The position numbers and the translations under genes were made by a program. This document shows positions 8,603-19,098 of a DNA stretch of 21,286 nucleotides, one piece after another; position 1 is the stretch's first letter, and the number at the start of each line of letters is the position of its first letter. The DNA is from a virus: positions 1 to 21,286 of the IMG/VR virus record IMGVR_UViG_3300034068_000426; one strand, given 5' to 3'. The notes beneath the pieces were generated by a model. The model had not been told where the DNA came from and did no database searches. It saw only the letters and a list, made by a program, of their open reading frames with translations.

Positions 8603-8998
8603 ATGAATCCACACACTTACATAGGGCTACCTACGATAGTCCAAGAGATGCACCAATTAGACGTACCAATGGATATACTTCAACTGGATATAAACATAAA
8701 AGGCAAAACATTAGATAATATTTTAGAAGTTGTTTGCCACGTTACTGAATTGAAAGCGTATCAATTAAGAAGTAATACTAGAAAAAATAATATAATGACC
8801 GCTAGACACCTTTTTTTCTATATTGCACACAAACATACCAAAAAACAAATAGAAGTTATTGGGCGACATTTAAACAGACACCACGCAACCGTATTGCACG
8901 CTTGTAATAAAATAGAAAACCAATTAATTTATAGTGATGTGAATGATTTGGTCAATAAAATTGAGGCTATTTTAAGCCAAGTAAAAAAAGTAAATTAA
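8603..8998 (+). CDS. Stand-alone DnaA domain IV-like DNA-binding protein
   Basis: The 131-aa product's second half matches the C-terminal DnaA domain (Bac_DnaA_C): R60-K-N-N-I-M-T-A-R-H, then I-G-R-H-L-N-R-H-H-A-T-V-L-H-A-C-N-K-I at 86-104, equivalent to the DnaA signature around (D)H(T/S)TV-LHA. The AAA+ domain is absent. Such proteins bind double-stranded DNA and could direct replication initiation, or regulate it, at the repeats 450-600 bases downstream. The Asp of the DHTTV-type motif is replaced by His, so the target box may differ from the host DnaA box. Upstream is a T-poor A/C-rich leader. Confidence 0.8.
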   Translation: MNPHTYIGLPTIVQEMHQLDVPMDILQLDINIKGKTLDNILEVVCHVTELKAYQLRSNTRKNNIMTARHLFFYIAHKHTKKQIEVIGRHLNRHHATVLHACNKIENQLIYSDVNDLVNKIEAILSQVKKVN

Positions 8999-9413: not shown

Positions 9414-9425
9414 TTCCTACATACT

Positions 9426-9607
9426 GTAACCTTGTTACCGTAACCTTCCAGGTGACAGTTAAAAATATCAAATAAAATAAATTATTTTTTATAATTTCGA
9501 AAAAAGTAGGGTTACGGTTACACTTTTTAGTTAAACCCTTTATTTCATTAGGCTGAGAGGTGTAACCTTAGGTGTAACCTTAGGTGTAACCCTAGGTAAA
9601 AGGTTAC
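9426..9607. repeat. GTAACC/GGTTAC repeat array: candidate replication origin or operator
   Basis: Eight copies lie within 182 non-coding bases: GTAACC at 9426, 9440, 9562, 9574 and 9586, and GGTTAC at 9510, 9516 and 9602. Three of them form a perfect-register 12-bp tandem repeat AGGTGTAACCTT (9558-9569, 9570-9581, and 9582-9593 with one change). The last two opposite copies form a 7-bp inverted repeat, TGTAACC/GGTTACA. An AT-only stretch (about 9459-9497) lies between the two clusters and would melt easily. Iterons plus an AT-rich segment beside DnaA-like, SSB-like and primase-helicase genes suggest an origin. An operator for the promoter at 9634 is the alternative. Confidence 0.6.
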
Positions 9608-9633
9608 AGTAAAAAAATAATTAAATAAAATGT

Positions 9634-9662
9634 ATTGTACATTGAAATTATTATTATATTTG
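9634..9662 (+). promoter_or_regulatory. Bacteroidota-type promoter for the replication operon
   Basis: TTG at 9635-9637, 17 bases, then TATATTTG at 9655-9662 (exact TAnnTTTG). It lies just downstream of the repeat array and upstream of the structured leader, reading towards the primase-helicase. Confidence 0.7.
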
Positions 9663-9667
9663 TACTC

Positions 9668-9768
9668 AAATACACCACTAAGAAAGAATTTTTTATTAAA
9701 GCCTTGTAAAATGATTGCCTGTGGTGGGCTAATTTTACAGGGCTTTATATTTTAAAATACACCACATT
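9668..9768 (+). ncRNA. Structured leader RNA with long hairpin and possible pseudoknot
   Basis: The arm AAAGCCTTGTAAAAT (9698-9712) pairs with ATTTTACAGGGCTTT (9732-9746) over 15 positions with a single G-U pair; an outer T-A pair (9697/9747) makes 16. The 19-base loop holds a small GCC/GGC stem (9717-9719, 9727-9729) that presents TGTGGTG (9720-9726). This loop is complementary to CACCACA at 9760-9766, two bases before the ATG at 9769, and to CACCAC at 9673-9678. Both flanks are parts of an exact 11-base direct repeat, AAATACACCAC. I infer a cis-acting control element (translation switch or attenuator). It matches no riboswitch class I know. Confidence 0.6.
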
Positions 9769-9930
9769 ATGGAAAGAATAGCAGTTTACACTTTCATTCG
9801 AGAAACGGGAGGCATTAGTTTAGAAAGCCCTATAATTTTAGAGATAGGAACTATATTTGAATACTGGGGGTTAACCTGGATAGTATCAGAAAAAAGTGAC
9901 GACCTTTATTTAATTTGCAAACAAGTATGA
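9769..9930 (+). CDS. 53-aa ORF between the structured leader and the primase-helicase
   Basis: ATG 9769 is the first start after the structured leader. The 53-aa peptide (MERIAVYTFIRETGGISLES... ending YLICKQV) is beta-like with two Trp residues (FEYWGLTW). Its stop overlaps the primase start as ATGA, so it probably passes ribosomes on to that gene. No family is recognised. It may be a real small protein or a regulatory leader ORF. Confidence 0.6.
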   Translation: MERIAVYTFIRETGGISLESPIILEIGTIFEYWGLTWIVSEKSDDLYLICKQV

Positions 9931-12164
9931 TAACAAAAGAATACGCTAAAAAATTAGCATCATTAGGTTTTTCTTTAATACCTTGCCGAGATGATAAATC
10001 ACCAGTTGAAACAAAATGGCAAATTAAACCAACAAAAACAGTTGATGAAATAGAATTATTAAACCCTGAAAGATGGGGTTGTAGATGTGGTTATAACGAT
10101 GTAGAATGTATCGATGTAGATTTAAAGGTATTGACTTCATTACCTGAAAGAAAACAATGGTTTGATGAATACTTAAATTTCTTATGTGATAATATAGAAA
10201 ATTTTTTGCAGAAAGTAGTAATAGCAAAAACCGTTAAAGGTGGTTATCATATTCTTTATAAAACTAATATAAAGGATGGTAATAAAAAACTTGCTAAACT
10301 AGAGGGTATGAATAGTGCTATTTTAGAAACAAGAGGTGTGGCAGGTCAGTTCATTATGTATGGTGTATTCTATAATGAAAGAGAATATCATCATATCGAT
10401 TATATTACAGATGAAGAAAGAAATATTATAATAGAAATATCCAGGACTTACAATCACATTTCTATTGAAACAATACCAACACCTAAAAAAACAGATTACG
10501 ATAAAGTAAATGAAAATGATGTTACACCCTGGGATGATTACAATTCAAAACATACTGCATTAGATATTGTTTCAGATGAATTTACGGTTGTAAGAAACAC
10601 AAAGAAATCTTATGTAATTAAAAGGCACGGTGCAGAAAGCCCACATAGTGGATATGTATTTAAAGATAGTGGATGTATGTACTTATTCAGTACTGCAACA
10701 CAATACAAAGCAGAAACTTTATTATCACCTTTTATTATATTTACTCAAAAATATCATCAAGGAGATATTAAAAATAGTGTTAATGATTTATATGAAAAAG
10801 GTTATGGAACTAGAAGGGTAGCAAAAATAGTAGTGCCTGAAATATTAATTCAAGATAATAAAATAGATAGAGCACAATTCCCAATCGATATATTCCCAAA
10901 AGAAATACAACACTTTATAATTGAAAGTTCTACTAGTTTAGGTATGTCAATCGATTACATGGGTTGTGCTTTTTTATGGGTACTTTCTTTGGTAACTGGC
11001 AACAGTATGGTTATTGAAGTAAAACCAGGTTGGAAAGAAATAGCAACCTTATGGATTGCAATAGTTGGTAAACCTGGTATTGGTAAGACACCATCTTTAA
11101 AACAGATAATCGATCCATTAAGAAAGTTAAACGTAATTGAACAAAGAAACTTTCAAAAACAATTTGAACTTTACAATGCTTATTCAAAGTTAGATAAAAA
11201 AGAAAAAGAACACTGTCAGGAAGTACATAAACCCGTAAATAAACAATTTATTGTTGGTGATGTAACCCTGGAGGCATTAATAGATATTCACGAAGAAAAC
11301 CCAAACGCAATAGGAGTATTCAAAGATGAATTAGCGGGGTGGTTAAAGGATATGAATAAATATCGAGCTGGTTCAGATTTAGAATTTTGGTTATCATCCT
11401 GGAGTGGCACACCTATTTCTTTAAATAGAAAGACCTCAAAAAATGCGTTTGTAGATAAACCATTTATTCCAGTTATTGGAGGTATACAACCAAGTATATT
11501 TGATGATTTTACCGAGGGTGAAAATAAAGAAAATGGTTTTGTAGATAGAGTTTTAATTAGTTACCCTGAGTTAATAGTAAACCACTACACAAAAGAGTAT
11601 ATTGATTTTGAATTAATAAAATGGTATGATTCATTTGTAGTAAATATGAAAGAAACAATTAATAAAAAGTTTCTTAAATTTGATGAAAACGACCAAATAC
11701 AACCATTAGTAGTAAGATTTGATAAAGAAAGTGAAAAGGAATGGATTAGAATATTTAATAAATATACAGATATTCAAAATTCAGATGATGAAAATGAGTA
11801 TATGAAATCGATGTTACCTAAACAAAAATCTTATATTCCAAGGTTTGCATTACTTTTAAATAATGTTTGGTTTTTTAGTTCAGATAATTACGATGTTGAA
11901 AAAATAAATAAAGAATCTATACTACGTGCTGAAAGATTATCAGAGTACTTTATTAGTATGGCAAAATTAGTTAAACAAGATTCTAAAAATAAATCAGATT
12001 TAAGTAATTTAGCAAAAGATAAAACTACTAATTTTGAAAAATTCAAAGCTATGTATTTAGCAGATAAAGAATTAAATAAAACAGTAGTAGCTGAAATGTT
12101 AGATGTATCAAGAAAATCAATTTACCAATGGGTTAAGAAAATAGAATCAGATGGAAAACTTTAA
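9927..12164 (+). CDS. Prim-Pol / DUF3987 primase-helicase
   Basis: I choose ATG 9927 (ATGA overlap) over the in-frame TTG at 9915, giving 745 aa. Residues 1-200 are a bifunctional primase/polymerase (AEP) domain: L-I-P-C near 17-20, K30-W31, and the metal-binding I-D63-V-D65. Residues about 340-640 match DUF3987: Walker A G381-K-P-G-I-G-K-T, the acidic V-F-K-D-E-L-A-G-W-L motif, F-W-L-S-S-W-S-G-T, and G-G-I-Q-P. The last 30 residues form a helix-turn-helix (VVAEMLDVSRKSIYQWVKKI). It should prime and unwind DNA at the phage fork, and the HTH may read DNA at the origin. It starts the replication operon and overlaps its downstream neighbour by 14 bases. Confidence 0.88.
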   Translation: MITKEYAKKLASLGFSLIPCRDDKSPVETKWQIKPTKTVDEIELLNPERWGCRCGYNDVECIDVDLKVLTSLPERKQWFDEYLNFLCDNIENFLQKVVIAKTVKGGYHILYKTNIKDGNKKLAKLEGMNSAILETRGVAGQFIMYGVFYNEREYHHIDYITDEERNIIIEISRTYNHISIETIPTPKKTDYDKVNENDVTPWDDYNSKHTALDIVSDEFTVVRNTKKSYVIKRHGAESPHSGYVFKDSGCMYLFSTATQYKAETLLSPFIIFTQKYHQGDIKNSVNDLYEKGYGTRRVAKIVVPEILIQDNKIDRAQFPIDIFPKEIQHFIIESSTSLGMSIDYMGCAFLWVLSLVTGNSMVIEVKPGWKEIATLWIAIVGKPGIGKTPSLKQIIDPLRKLNVIEQRNFQKQFELYNAYSKLDKKEKEHCQEVHKPVNKQFIVGDVTLEALIDIHEENPNAIGVFKDELAGWLKDMNKYRAGSDLEFWLSSWSGTPISLNRKTSKNAFVDKPFIPVIGGIQPSIFDDFTEGENKENGFVDRVLISYPELIVNHYTKEYIDFELIKWYDSFVVNMKETINKKFLKFDENDQIQPLVVRFDKESEKEWIRIFNKYTDIQNSDDENEYMKSMLPKQKSYIPRFALLLNNVWFFSSDNYDVEKINKESILRAERLSEYFISMAKLVKQDSKNKSDLSNLAKDKTTNFEKFKAMYLADKELNKTVVAEMLDVSRKSIYQWVKKIESDGKL

Positions 12165-16563: not shown

Positions 16564-17895
16564 GTGTCAAAAGAACCAACTATACACGATGTTTTAAAAC
16601 TTGGCGCTAGAGATAGTTTCGTAGTCTTCTGCTACTACTATGATTTTGACTTTTTCCGTTCACGACCTTTTTTAAAAGAAATAGCACAGTCGTTTCAAGA
16701 TGTTACCGATGGTAAACTAAACTCATTAGCAGTATCACTACCTCCGAGAGCTGGAAAGTCTTATATTACTACTTTGTTTTGTGCTTGGACACTTGGCAAA
16801 TATCCAACTGAATCAGTAATGAGAAATACTTGTTCAGCACGTTTAGCCCGTAAATTATCATACGACACTAGAGAGATAATAAAATCACAAAAGTTTCAAA
16901 ATGTATTTCCTGAAGTTAAGCTATCAGATGACAAAAGCGCAGTTGATGGTTGGAATACTAATTTATCAAAATCAGTAGGTTATTTTGGGCAAGGTGTGGG
17001 CGGTACTATTATTGGTTTTGGTGCTTCAAAGTTAGCCATTACTGATGACTTATTCCGATCAATGGAAGATGCAATGAGTGAAACAATAAGAGAAAAAACT
17101 CACAGTTGGAAACATGGTACGCACGATTCACGATTAGAGAGCGGATGCGCTCAAATTGATATAGGTACACGTTGGGTAAGGGATGACGTTATCGGAGTTA
17201 ATTCTATTGAAGGTCGTTATGAAAAAGAAATAGTAGTGCCAGCATTAGTTGAAGGAGTTTCATTTTGTGAGGCAGTACAAACAACTGAAAGGTTTCTACA
17301 AATGAAGGAACGTATGCCAGAAGAGATTTGGATGGCTGAATATATGCAGACCCCTATCGATATTGAAGGTAGGTTATTTGAGAACCTTAAAACTTTTACC
17401 GATATAGATTCAATTCGTAACAGTTCAGAGGGGTGCTTGGCTTATATCGATGTGGCTAATGGTGGAGGTGACTTCCTTTGTATGGTTGTTGGTCATTTAG
17501 TAAACAAACAAGTTTACATAACCGATGTGGTTTTTAATAAAGGTAACACCGATATTACTATTCCAATGGTGGCAAATATATTGAATATAAATAACCCTAG
17601 ACAAACAAGGATTGAAACCAATGGAATGGGTGCATTGTTTATTAAGATGTTGAAAAACGAAACAAAATGTACCTTAGTGCCTATTTCAAATAGTACTAAT
17701 AAAAATACACGTATCTTTATGAATAGTGCATTTGTAAAAAATAATATGATATTCTTAAATACCGATAAAGGCGAGTATTTTCAATTTTTACAAGCACTCG
17801 CAAAGTATAGTCACGAGGGTAGGAATATAAACGATGATGCGCCCGATTCAATAACTGGATTAGCTTTATTTTTCCAATCACTTTTTAAATTCTGA
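16564..17895 (+). CDS. terL: Terminase large subunit
   Basis: The 443-aa product has Walker A P60-P-R-A-G-K65-S, Walker B L-A-I-T-D161-D162, and an RNase H-like nuclease domain from about residue 290 with A-Y-I-D-V-A-N-G-G-G-D. Together these power translocation and cut the packaged DNA. It starts with GTG 16564, three bases after the small subunit stop; the nearby ATG (16562) is out of frame. The 3' end overlaps the oppositely oriented portal gene by 18 bases. Confidence 0.93.
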   Translation: MSKEPTIHDVLKLGARDSFVVFCYYYDFDFFRSRPFLKEIAQSFQDVTDGKLNSLAVSLPPRAGKSYITTLFCAWTLGKYPTESVMRNTCSARLARKLSYDTREIIKSQKFQNVFPEVKLSDDKSAVDGWNTNLSKSVGYFGQGVGGTIIGFGASKLAITDDLFRSMEDAMSETIREKTHSWKHGTHDSRLESGCAQIDIGTRWVRDDVIGVNSIEGRYEKEIVVPALVEGVSFCEAVQTTERFLQMKERMPEEIWMAEYMQTPIDIEGRLFENLKTFTDIDSIRNSSEGCLAYIDVANGGGDFLCMVVGHLVNKQVYITDVVFNKGNTDITIPMVANILNINNPRQTRIETNGMGALFIKMLKNETKCTLVPISNSTNKNTRIFMNSAFVKNNMIFLNTDKGEYFQFLQALAKYSHEGRNINDDAPDSITGLALFFQSLFKF

Positions 17896-19098
17896 TGCAA
17901 TAATATCGGCTAAGTCAGTACGGTTGTTGGCTTGTAATATTTGTATCGTTTCGGCTCTAGTTTTATCGGCTGATGCTTCTGCGCTTTTATCGGATTTCAA
18001 TACTTCTAAATGTGAATAGTCTTTTTCTAACCATTCATTAATGCCATCCATACCAAAGAATTTAGTAAAACCTAATGCTCTATCTTCTGCAAGTGGAATA
18101 ATACAATCTTGATACGCTGATTTTAAACCTTGCGCATAGTTTGAGAATGTTGAAGCCTTACTAAAACTAAAGATATTTTCATTCAATCCAAAGCCATCTA
18201 TGATTAATTTAAAGTCTTGGTCAACTTCCTCAAACAACATTAAATCTTTTGTTGGGTATGACATAGCATTCCATTTCGCACTTCCTTCAACATATTGGAT
18301 ATTTGCTTTACCTTCTTGCATACCAAACAATCCAGCACGTGCCTCATTCATTCTTTTAATATCTTCTGGAGTTAAACCGAGACCCATACCATTTTGACCG
18401 TTATCGGATGACATAAACCCTAGTGCAGCATCATTTGTGATAATTCTATTTCTAAAACCCATTGAAGCTCTAATGTTAGCTATTGCAAGTTTATATTTGT
18501 CGAGTGGAGAAATACCCATTAAAGGGTCATTAGGATTAGAACTTTTAAAGTGAATAACATTTTTAACATCAAAGTATTCTCTAATTCCATTGTACTCGAT
18601 GTATATTTTATCAATGATTTTTTCACGTTCAACTTGATTGAACATTTTACCAGTGCGACCGATAACGGTATATTGCATTGGTAGGTTATAAATGGCAGTT
18701 GGTATCGGTAACGATTTGCGTAATAAATTAACCATTGAATTACCATAAGTTTCATCACTCCAAATCATTGACTTATCAAGTTCAGACCCGTTTTGAATAG
18801 GATTAGGATTCTCTAAAATATAAACTGCATCTGAATTTTCAACTAATTGTTTTTTACCGTTTACTAATTTGTAATGTTTCCATCGACCGTTTGAGTACAT
18901 TGATGCCTTACGGTCGATAACTGCTGCTACTTGCGGTGTAGTTCTAGCAAGTTCGTAAAGGTTTTCCCAAGTAGTATCAACTGTTGTTTCACCTTTTTGA
19001 AGACCCCATTGAACATAAGAGCCGAAGTTTGTTTGAGTATAAGCATCTTTGCCACCCGTAATAAAAGCCCCTAAACGATAAAAAATATTTTCTGCCAT
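17878..19098 (-). CDS. Portal protein, HK97-like family, on the opposite strand
   Basis: The 406-aa product has typical phage_portal features: an N-terminal TTPQVAAVIDRKASMYSNGRW segment (about 53-73), Y-I-L-E-N-P-N-P, G-N-S-M-V-N-L-L, V-I-H-F-K-S-S-N-P-N-D-P-L-M-G-I-S-P-L, and a C-terminal charged tail (KSDKSAEASADKTRAE). It forms the dodecameric ring at the capsid vertex through which DNA enters. The length is normal and the frame intact. Unusually, it lies on the minus strand between plus-strand terL and protease/capsid genes. It has its own promoter in the symmetric element at 19113-19151, with a leader of only about 15 bases. Confidence 0.9.
   Translation of the reverse strand: MAENIFYRLGAFITGGKDAYTQTNFGSYVQWGLQKGETTVDTTWENLYELARTTPQVAAVIDRKASMYSNGRWKHYKLVNGKKQLVENSDAVYILENPNPIQNGSELDKSMIWSDETYGNSMVNLLRKSLPIPTAIYNLPMQYTVIGRTGKMFNQVEREKIIDKIYIEYNGIREYFDVKNVIHFKSSNPNDPLMGISPLDKYKLAIANIRASMGFRNRIITNDAALGFMSSDNGQNGMGLGLTPEDIKRMNEARAGLFGMQEGKANIQYVEGSAKWNAMSYPTKDLMLFEEVDQDFKLIIDGFGLNENIFSFSKASTFSNYAQGLKSAYQDCIIPLAEDRALGFTKFFGMDGINEWLEKDYSHLEVLKSDKSAEASADKTRAETIQILQANNRTDLADIIASEFKK

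Follow-up and report, generated by a model that had tools for sequence, protein, structure and literature searches.

The locus considered here lies directly before the replication operon of the window, by which we mean the whole 21,286-nt stretch of viral DNA analysed (IMG/VR record IMGVR_UViG_3300034068_000426), and it raises the question of what is done by a leader whose hairpin loop can pair with two different partners. An iteron-like array with the unit AGGTGTAACCTT and a 12-nt period (9558-9605, plus strand, as are all leader features and genes in this paragraph) provides an origin-like context 5′ of a Bacteroidota-type promoter (9635-9662), in which TTG occupies 9635-9637 and TATATTTG 9655-9662. 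This -33/-7 type is the Bacteroidota consensus. Transcription is predicted to start at about 9667-9669, next to the 5′ K motif AAATACACCAC (9668-9678), whose CACCAC (9673-9678) pairs with the hairpin loop over 6 bp. After a spacer of 18 nt comes the long hairpin H2 (9697-9747, 51 nt, located by folding), with a 16-bp outer stem (9697-9712/9732-9747), an internal loop GATT/TA, an inner stem GCC/GGC and a 7-nt apical loop, K′, reading TGTGGTG (9720-9726). H2 is followed by the T-rich stretch TATTTT (9748-9753) and a second copy of K, AAATACACCACA (9755-9766), of which CACCACA (9760-9766) pairs with the loop over 7 bp and ends two bases before the ATG at 9769. The 11-mer AAATACACCAC is exact at 9668-9678 and 9755-9765, and has no further exact copy in the window. 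The first gene 3′ of the leader is a 53-aa ORF (9769-9930) with no match in Pfam or PHROG, and the ATGA at 9927-9930 overlaps its stop with the start of a primase-helicase carrying Prim-Pol and DUF3987 domains (9927-12164). Homologs of this ORF (53-60 aa) sit behind the leaders of L004 and L005, likewise between leader and primase-helicase with overlapping start and stop.

The original prediction had described a hairpin with the loop TGTGGTG, two partners for that loop and an exact 11-base repeat, and all of these were found in place. Its view of the region as a structured, pseudoknot-capable leader directly 3′ of a promoter also held: the promoter elements could be located, and the fold is better than that of shuffled sequence (z = -3.05), only one of 200 dinucleotide shuffles being equally good. 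The position before a replication operon, with an iteron-like array upstream of the promoter, was likewise borne out. When the flanks were shuffled, a 5′ loop partner of at least 6 nt arose in 1.1% of cases and a 3′ partner of at least 7 nt in 0.025%, while both together were seen in none of 20,000 shuffled flanks. The predicted pairing strengths of the two partners in the window are alike (-10.6 kcal/mol for the 5′ partner and -11.8 kcal/mol for the second K). A scan for promoter, 5′ partner, hairpin and T-tract returned the leader site as the sole match in the window; applied to Flavobacterium phage 11b, whose 36-kb genome is complete, it returned exactly one site.

We fetched 80 relatives of the primase-helicase and read the DNA upstream of them, which has the same layout in other sequences: TAnnTTTG, then a K of 6-9 nt and, some 50 nt 3′ of it, a long hairpin that has the reverse complement of K in its loop. 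The leader is not essential, since in four close primase relatives (L019, L020, L021 and L060) the gene follows its promoter directly, with no leader in between. A pattern search identified L106, an independent leader that has the window's K, second K and hairpin core GATTGCCTGTGGTGGGCTAAT, with an outer stem that differs and is compensated, and that stands before a different replication gene. An exact search for AATACACCAC pairs gave 36 matches and a search for TGATTGCC..GGCTAATT gave 75, and in both the only leaders were those of L106 and the window's twin contig.

Comparison of homologs identified the pairing of the 5′ end with the loop as the conserved core of the family. K lies within the first 20 nt or so of the predicted transcript, mostly in the loop of a short 5′ hairpin, and about 50 nt 3′ of it the long hairpin is built from an outer stem, a conserved internal loop and an inner stem, usually with a T-tract behind. 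The internal loop is UGAA/GGAU or a bulged-G-like GAGUA/GAAA, and there are few invariant bases otherwise. Some class C leaders contain a hammerhead-like core (GAUGAG..CGAAA); this identity was rejected, as GAGUA/GAAA fits the bulged-G form better and there is no third helix or cleavage site. In class C the loop of the 5′ hairpin consists of an A and a 7-nt K, and that of H2 usually of one base and a 7-nt K′, an arrangement typical of kissing hairpins. In most members, the 5′ hairpin is predicted to form a kissing contact with the apical loop of the long hairpin. In the window, promoter, 5′ K, hairpin with K′ in its loop and a gene close behind are all present at 9655-9771, with a K:K′ helix of 6 bp and no 5′ hairpin of at least 4 bp; the 5′ hairpin is also missing in L338 and in L075-L081. 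The original prediction was right that the loop pairs, but its general partner is the 5′ end of the transcript, mostly presented as a hairpin loop, so that the contact is in most cases a kissing one.

We scanned for a promoter followed by K, with or without a 5′ hairpin, and by K′ within a long hairpin; this gave 40 matches at a score of at least 46, against one in dinucleotide shuffles, and a promoter-free scan that included the T-tract gave 18 against none at a score of at least 50. The final scan yielded 89 candidate leaders; among them K had 52 different sequences, and a 5′ hairpin was present in 82. A few low-complexity, iteron-like matches that are probably false (e.g. L070, L072 and L007 on the minus strand) slightly inflate the count. 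Because such structural scans select for complementarity, two sets of hairpins picked without any use of K were tested as well. Class A hairpins, selected by the core TGAAACAG..CTGTGGAT and an outer stem of at least 8, had an 8-bp upstream K partner in 13 of 13 cases, whereas the downstream control gave 0 of 13 at 7 bp or more; matches to the class A pattern that lacked the stem had an 8-bp partner in only 1 of 85. Class C hairpins, selected by GAGTAGAG..CTCGAAA and an outer stem of at least 7, had an upstream partner in 50 of 51 (at least 7 bp in 49), against none at 7 bp or more in the downstream control. A promoter was present at the equivalent place in all 13 class A and in 49 of the 51 class C relatives.

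The hairpin arms and the pairing of the loop with the 5′ flank, on which the original prediction depended, covary across the family. In the alignments of classes A and C, 93% and 99.1% of cells were paired, against 30-50% in slid controls, changes on both sides occurred in 20 of 27 and 17 of 23 pairs, and none of 500 shuffles reached the observed score; most of the aligned rows came from scans that select on K, and for the pseudoknot itself the counts obtained without K are therefore safer to rely on. Covariation was seen in the K:K′ helix as well as in the 5′ hairpin and outer stem. L013, L014 and L016 are nearly identical leaders whose K sequences are ACGCAC, ATGCAG and ATGCCG, each with a matching loop, from which we infer that K is changing fast and in concert with the loop. 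Where two leaders stand on one contig, their K differs in the genuine cases. The class C outer stem contains 34 U-G but only 2 G-U pairs; since these wobbles would be A/C mismatches on the other strand, the structured molecule is the sense RNA rather than the DNA or the opposite RNA. That the complementarity is due to chance, or is a feature of an origin at the level of DNA, could be suspected from the iteron-like array that adjoins the leader in the window. Such an explanation is contradicted by the covariation and the strand-specific wobbles, as well as by leaders before endonuclease genes that do not adjoin an origin-like array, and its probability is negligible. We also rejected a target-site duplication left by a small mobile hairpin, which the two 11-nt repeats might have indicated, since leaders that lack the outer repeat show covariation of K:K′.

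What the RNA may do is suggested by what follows the hairpin. A T-tract (at least 5 T in 7) lies 3′ of the hairpin in 48 of 51 class C and 13 of 13 class A leaders (61 of 64), compared with 13-15% of background sites. Among the leaders for which an ORF was found, the start codon is a median of 14 nt 3′ of the stem and within 26 nt in 72 of 80. As this gap is too short for another promoter, RNA polymerase would have to read through a terminator-like hairpin in order to express the replication or endonuclease gene, and for this reason the leader is probably a cis-acting transcription attenuator, gated by pairing between the 5′ end and the terminator loop. The K:K′ complex, formed as the hairpin emerges, would set how often the hairpin terminates, so that termination would depend on capture of the loop by the 5′ end. 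The family has the layout of an attenuator, namely a terminator-like hairpin and T-tract between promoter and gene, although the window itself is a weak example. Against the attenuator reading stand the T-tract, weak in the window (TATTTT) and absent in L106, the primase relatives that have no leader, and the finding by eye that the family has no general alternative antiterminator helix. A riboswitch would be expected to have such a helix together with a conserved ligand-binding core, and the few invariant bases of the leaders are those of the internal loops.

The leader could instead be an independent gene for a trans-acting small RNA, with its own promoter, structured RNA and terminator, which precedes other genes by chance. 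At about 100 nt with a terminator-like end it does resemble a complete transcription unit, but the short gap leaves no room for a second promoter and the same classes of downstream gene recur, so that we consider this highly improbable. Another model is offered by the putRNAs, which are two-stem RNAs of about 70 nt behind early promoters (PMC9378689). Like putL and putR of phage HK022, the leaders are phage RNAs at the start of an early transcript, with two stem-loops and a predicted influence on transcription, and a put-like RNA would, through its kissing fold, bind the elongating polymerase and cause read-through of its own and later terminators. The location directly behind phage promoters, the two hairpins with a tertiary contact and the sense-strand structure would all agree with this. 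However, put promotes read-through and is not itself terminator-like, whereas the second hairpin here bears a T-tract, and neither a pseudoknot nor kissing between loops is mentioned for put in that paper (PMC9378689); the comparison is one of published descriptions. Put-like antitermination is accordingly an improbable account of the family.

In the original prediction, the two partners of the loop formed a switch that controls the entry of ribosomes. In its pure form, the loop would pair either with the 5′ K, with the gene on, or with the second K, with ribosome entry blocked. Two leaders fit this, namely the window and L106, in which the second K is exact, pairs over 7 bp and has a strength similar to that of the 5′ partner, and which are exactly the two leaders with a weak or absent T-tract. 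The second K before the ATG was absent from all other members checked, so that the rest of the family lacks a second partner. Moreover, K is identical in the window and L106, and the second-K pair therefore offers no covariation. L338 has the same K and does have a T-tract, but lacks the second K, which suggests that the window form is a derived or alternative solution. A purely translational switch is thus unlikely for the family; a two-partner switch is plausible as a variant of the window and L106, and is not the mechanism common to all. The terminator-like hairpin in nearly all members points to transcription attenuation rather than ribosome entry as the primary control. Given the weak or missing T-tract and the second K beside the start codon, control in these two leaders has probably shifted in part to translation, the 5′ end and the region of ribosome entry being alternative partners of the loop. 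The window may in this respect be compared with repZ of the IncI-alpha plasmid ColIb-P9, a replication gene that is controlled through a pseudoknot in its leader, 5′ of the ribosome site (cited in PMC8383071); the window has its second K just before the start codon, whereas the family otherwise has no such site. A leader peptide was also considered, as a 30-aa ORF overlaps the hairpin in L106, but in the window a stop interrupts this frame, and the ORF is thus not conserved.

The genes behind 64 representative leaders include 18 NUMOD4/HNH endonucleases and 8 DUF6291 proteins, along with other HNH and GIY-YIG endonucleases, Prim-Pol/DUF3987 and BT4734-like primases, and replisome organizers. 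Among named phages, the leader stands before the replication operon in Flavobacterium phages 11b, lillamy9-6 and elemoA, Cellulophaga phages phi13:2 and phi19:3, and Olleya phage Harreka_1, the locus in elemoA having been recognised by eye. In Riemerella phage RAP44 and Cellulophaga phage phi38:1, the gene used for comparison was not preceded by a leader. The covariance model R1 had one match at E ≤ 0.001 in 595 Bacteroidota genomes (299 from one family and 296 across the phylum), and the class C pattern had one match in 299 genomes, a rarity that has to be read knowing that the class A model misses divergent members. The leader family occurs in many viruses of Bacteroidota and hardly ever in the genomes of hosts. 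Homing endonuclease genes of the NUMOD4/HNH type that stand alone have a promoter and a kissing-loop leader of their own (L026, L038, L058, L004:1421, L340, L344, L375 and others). The K of such an endonuclease leader is not the one found in the replication leader of its contig, and the leader may travel with the endonuclease gene.

The range of downstream genes also bears on control by a separate antisense RNA directed against the loop, of the IncI-alpha repZ or pIP501 type, with the variation in K then marking compatibility groups. The leaders do precede replication genes, and K differs with compensation between the near-identical L013, L014 and L016. Like the attenuators of pIP501-type plasmids, they have a terminator in the leader of a replication gene, but there an antisense RNA induces termination (PMC8383071), while the complement in our leaders is supplied in cis by the 5′ end. 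Similarly, in repZ an antisense RNA (Inc) blocks the pseudoknot (cited in PMC8383071), and the partner in the leaders is their own 5′ end. A promoter-like site on the opposite strand, within 150 nt downstream, was present in 3 of about 40 loci with the one promoter consensus tried, and the leaders also precede homing endonucleases, genes with no role in copy number. Antisense control therefore appears very unlikely.

No match to the window was found in Rfam 15 at curated thresholds, and 16 further loci with class A, B or C leaders gave only sub-threshold, chance-level matches at relaxed E, in agreement with the earlier statement that no riboswitch or phage leader family with this layout was known. 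A literature search, made mostly outside subscription papers, found no report of it. Hairpins of the T4 homing endonuclease genes I-TevI, segB and mobE are structured RNAs before endonuclease genes, as are some of the leaders, but they sequester the ribosome site in long transcripts and no kissing loop is described for them (PMC2988022). STAXI and other pseudoknot RNAs are, like the leaders, found near DNA-processing genes (PMC2864571, Rfam); STAXI differs in having tandem pseudoknots near SSB, topoisomerase and integrase genes (PMC2864571). A 5′-terminal hairpin that kisses a terminator loop is described for none of put, repZ, pIP501-type attenuators and the T4 hairpins in the papers cited. 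Judged by these descriptions each system shares one aspect with the leaders, which on present comparisons are an undescribed family among putative cis-regulatory leader RNAs and are not assigned to any of these systems.

A more far-reaching reading, which we put forward tentatively and hold to be possible rather than probable, is that the leaders form a new class of cis-regulatory RNA. Through a fast-diversifying loop-loop code, the 5′ end would gate the terminator that follows it, as a means by which phages of Bacteroidota time replication and homing-endonuclease genes, and private codes would prevent cross-talk between leaders of one genome or of co-infecting phages. If the 5′ end does gate its own terminator in this way, gene timing would be compact and would need no dedicated recognition sequence. 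The leaders add a widespread and strongly covarying RNA family to the phages of a phylum in which gene regulation is poorly known, link the control of replication with that of homing endonucleases, and could be searched for as a means of locating early operons in uncultured phages. Isolates that carry the leader and could be used for experiments include Flavobacterium phage 11b, Cellulophaga phage phi13:2, Olleya phage Harreka_1 and the lillamy and elemo phages.

Several other features of these genomes were seen. A different conserved leader, TTCAAGGGG..ATCCACTTAAAAGGTTCACTGTTCC..CCCC..AACAGTGGAT, lies directly upstream of the primase gene in L034, L047, L052, L058 and L059; it has a possible AAGGGG/CCCCTT contact and, as far as tested, falls outside the kissing-loop family. 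Arrays of short repeats lie upstream of the primase gene in the window (9422-9611) and in the same region of primase relatives, with repeats whose sequence depends on the phage (GTGTAACC, GTGCACA, GTGTAAAG, GTGGGACAT) while the core stays similar and AAACCCTTATAAACACT-like, and look like a fast-changing origin and initiator-binding site. Near the array, the window encodes a small protein with a DnaA C-terminal DNA-binding domain (Bac_DnaA_C, 8603-8998), followed by a DUF3127 SSB-like protein, and a DnaA-like gene is also found upstream of the leader in Cellulophaga phages phi13:2 and phi19:3. Further along the window, the large terminase gene on the plus strand is directly followed by a portal-like 406-aa ORF (17878-19098) on the minus strand, and this opposite orientation is unusual.
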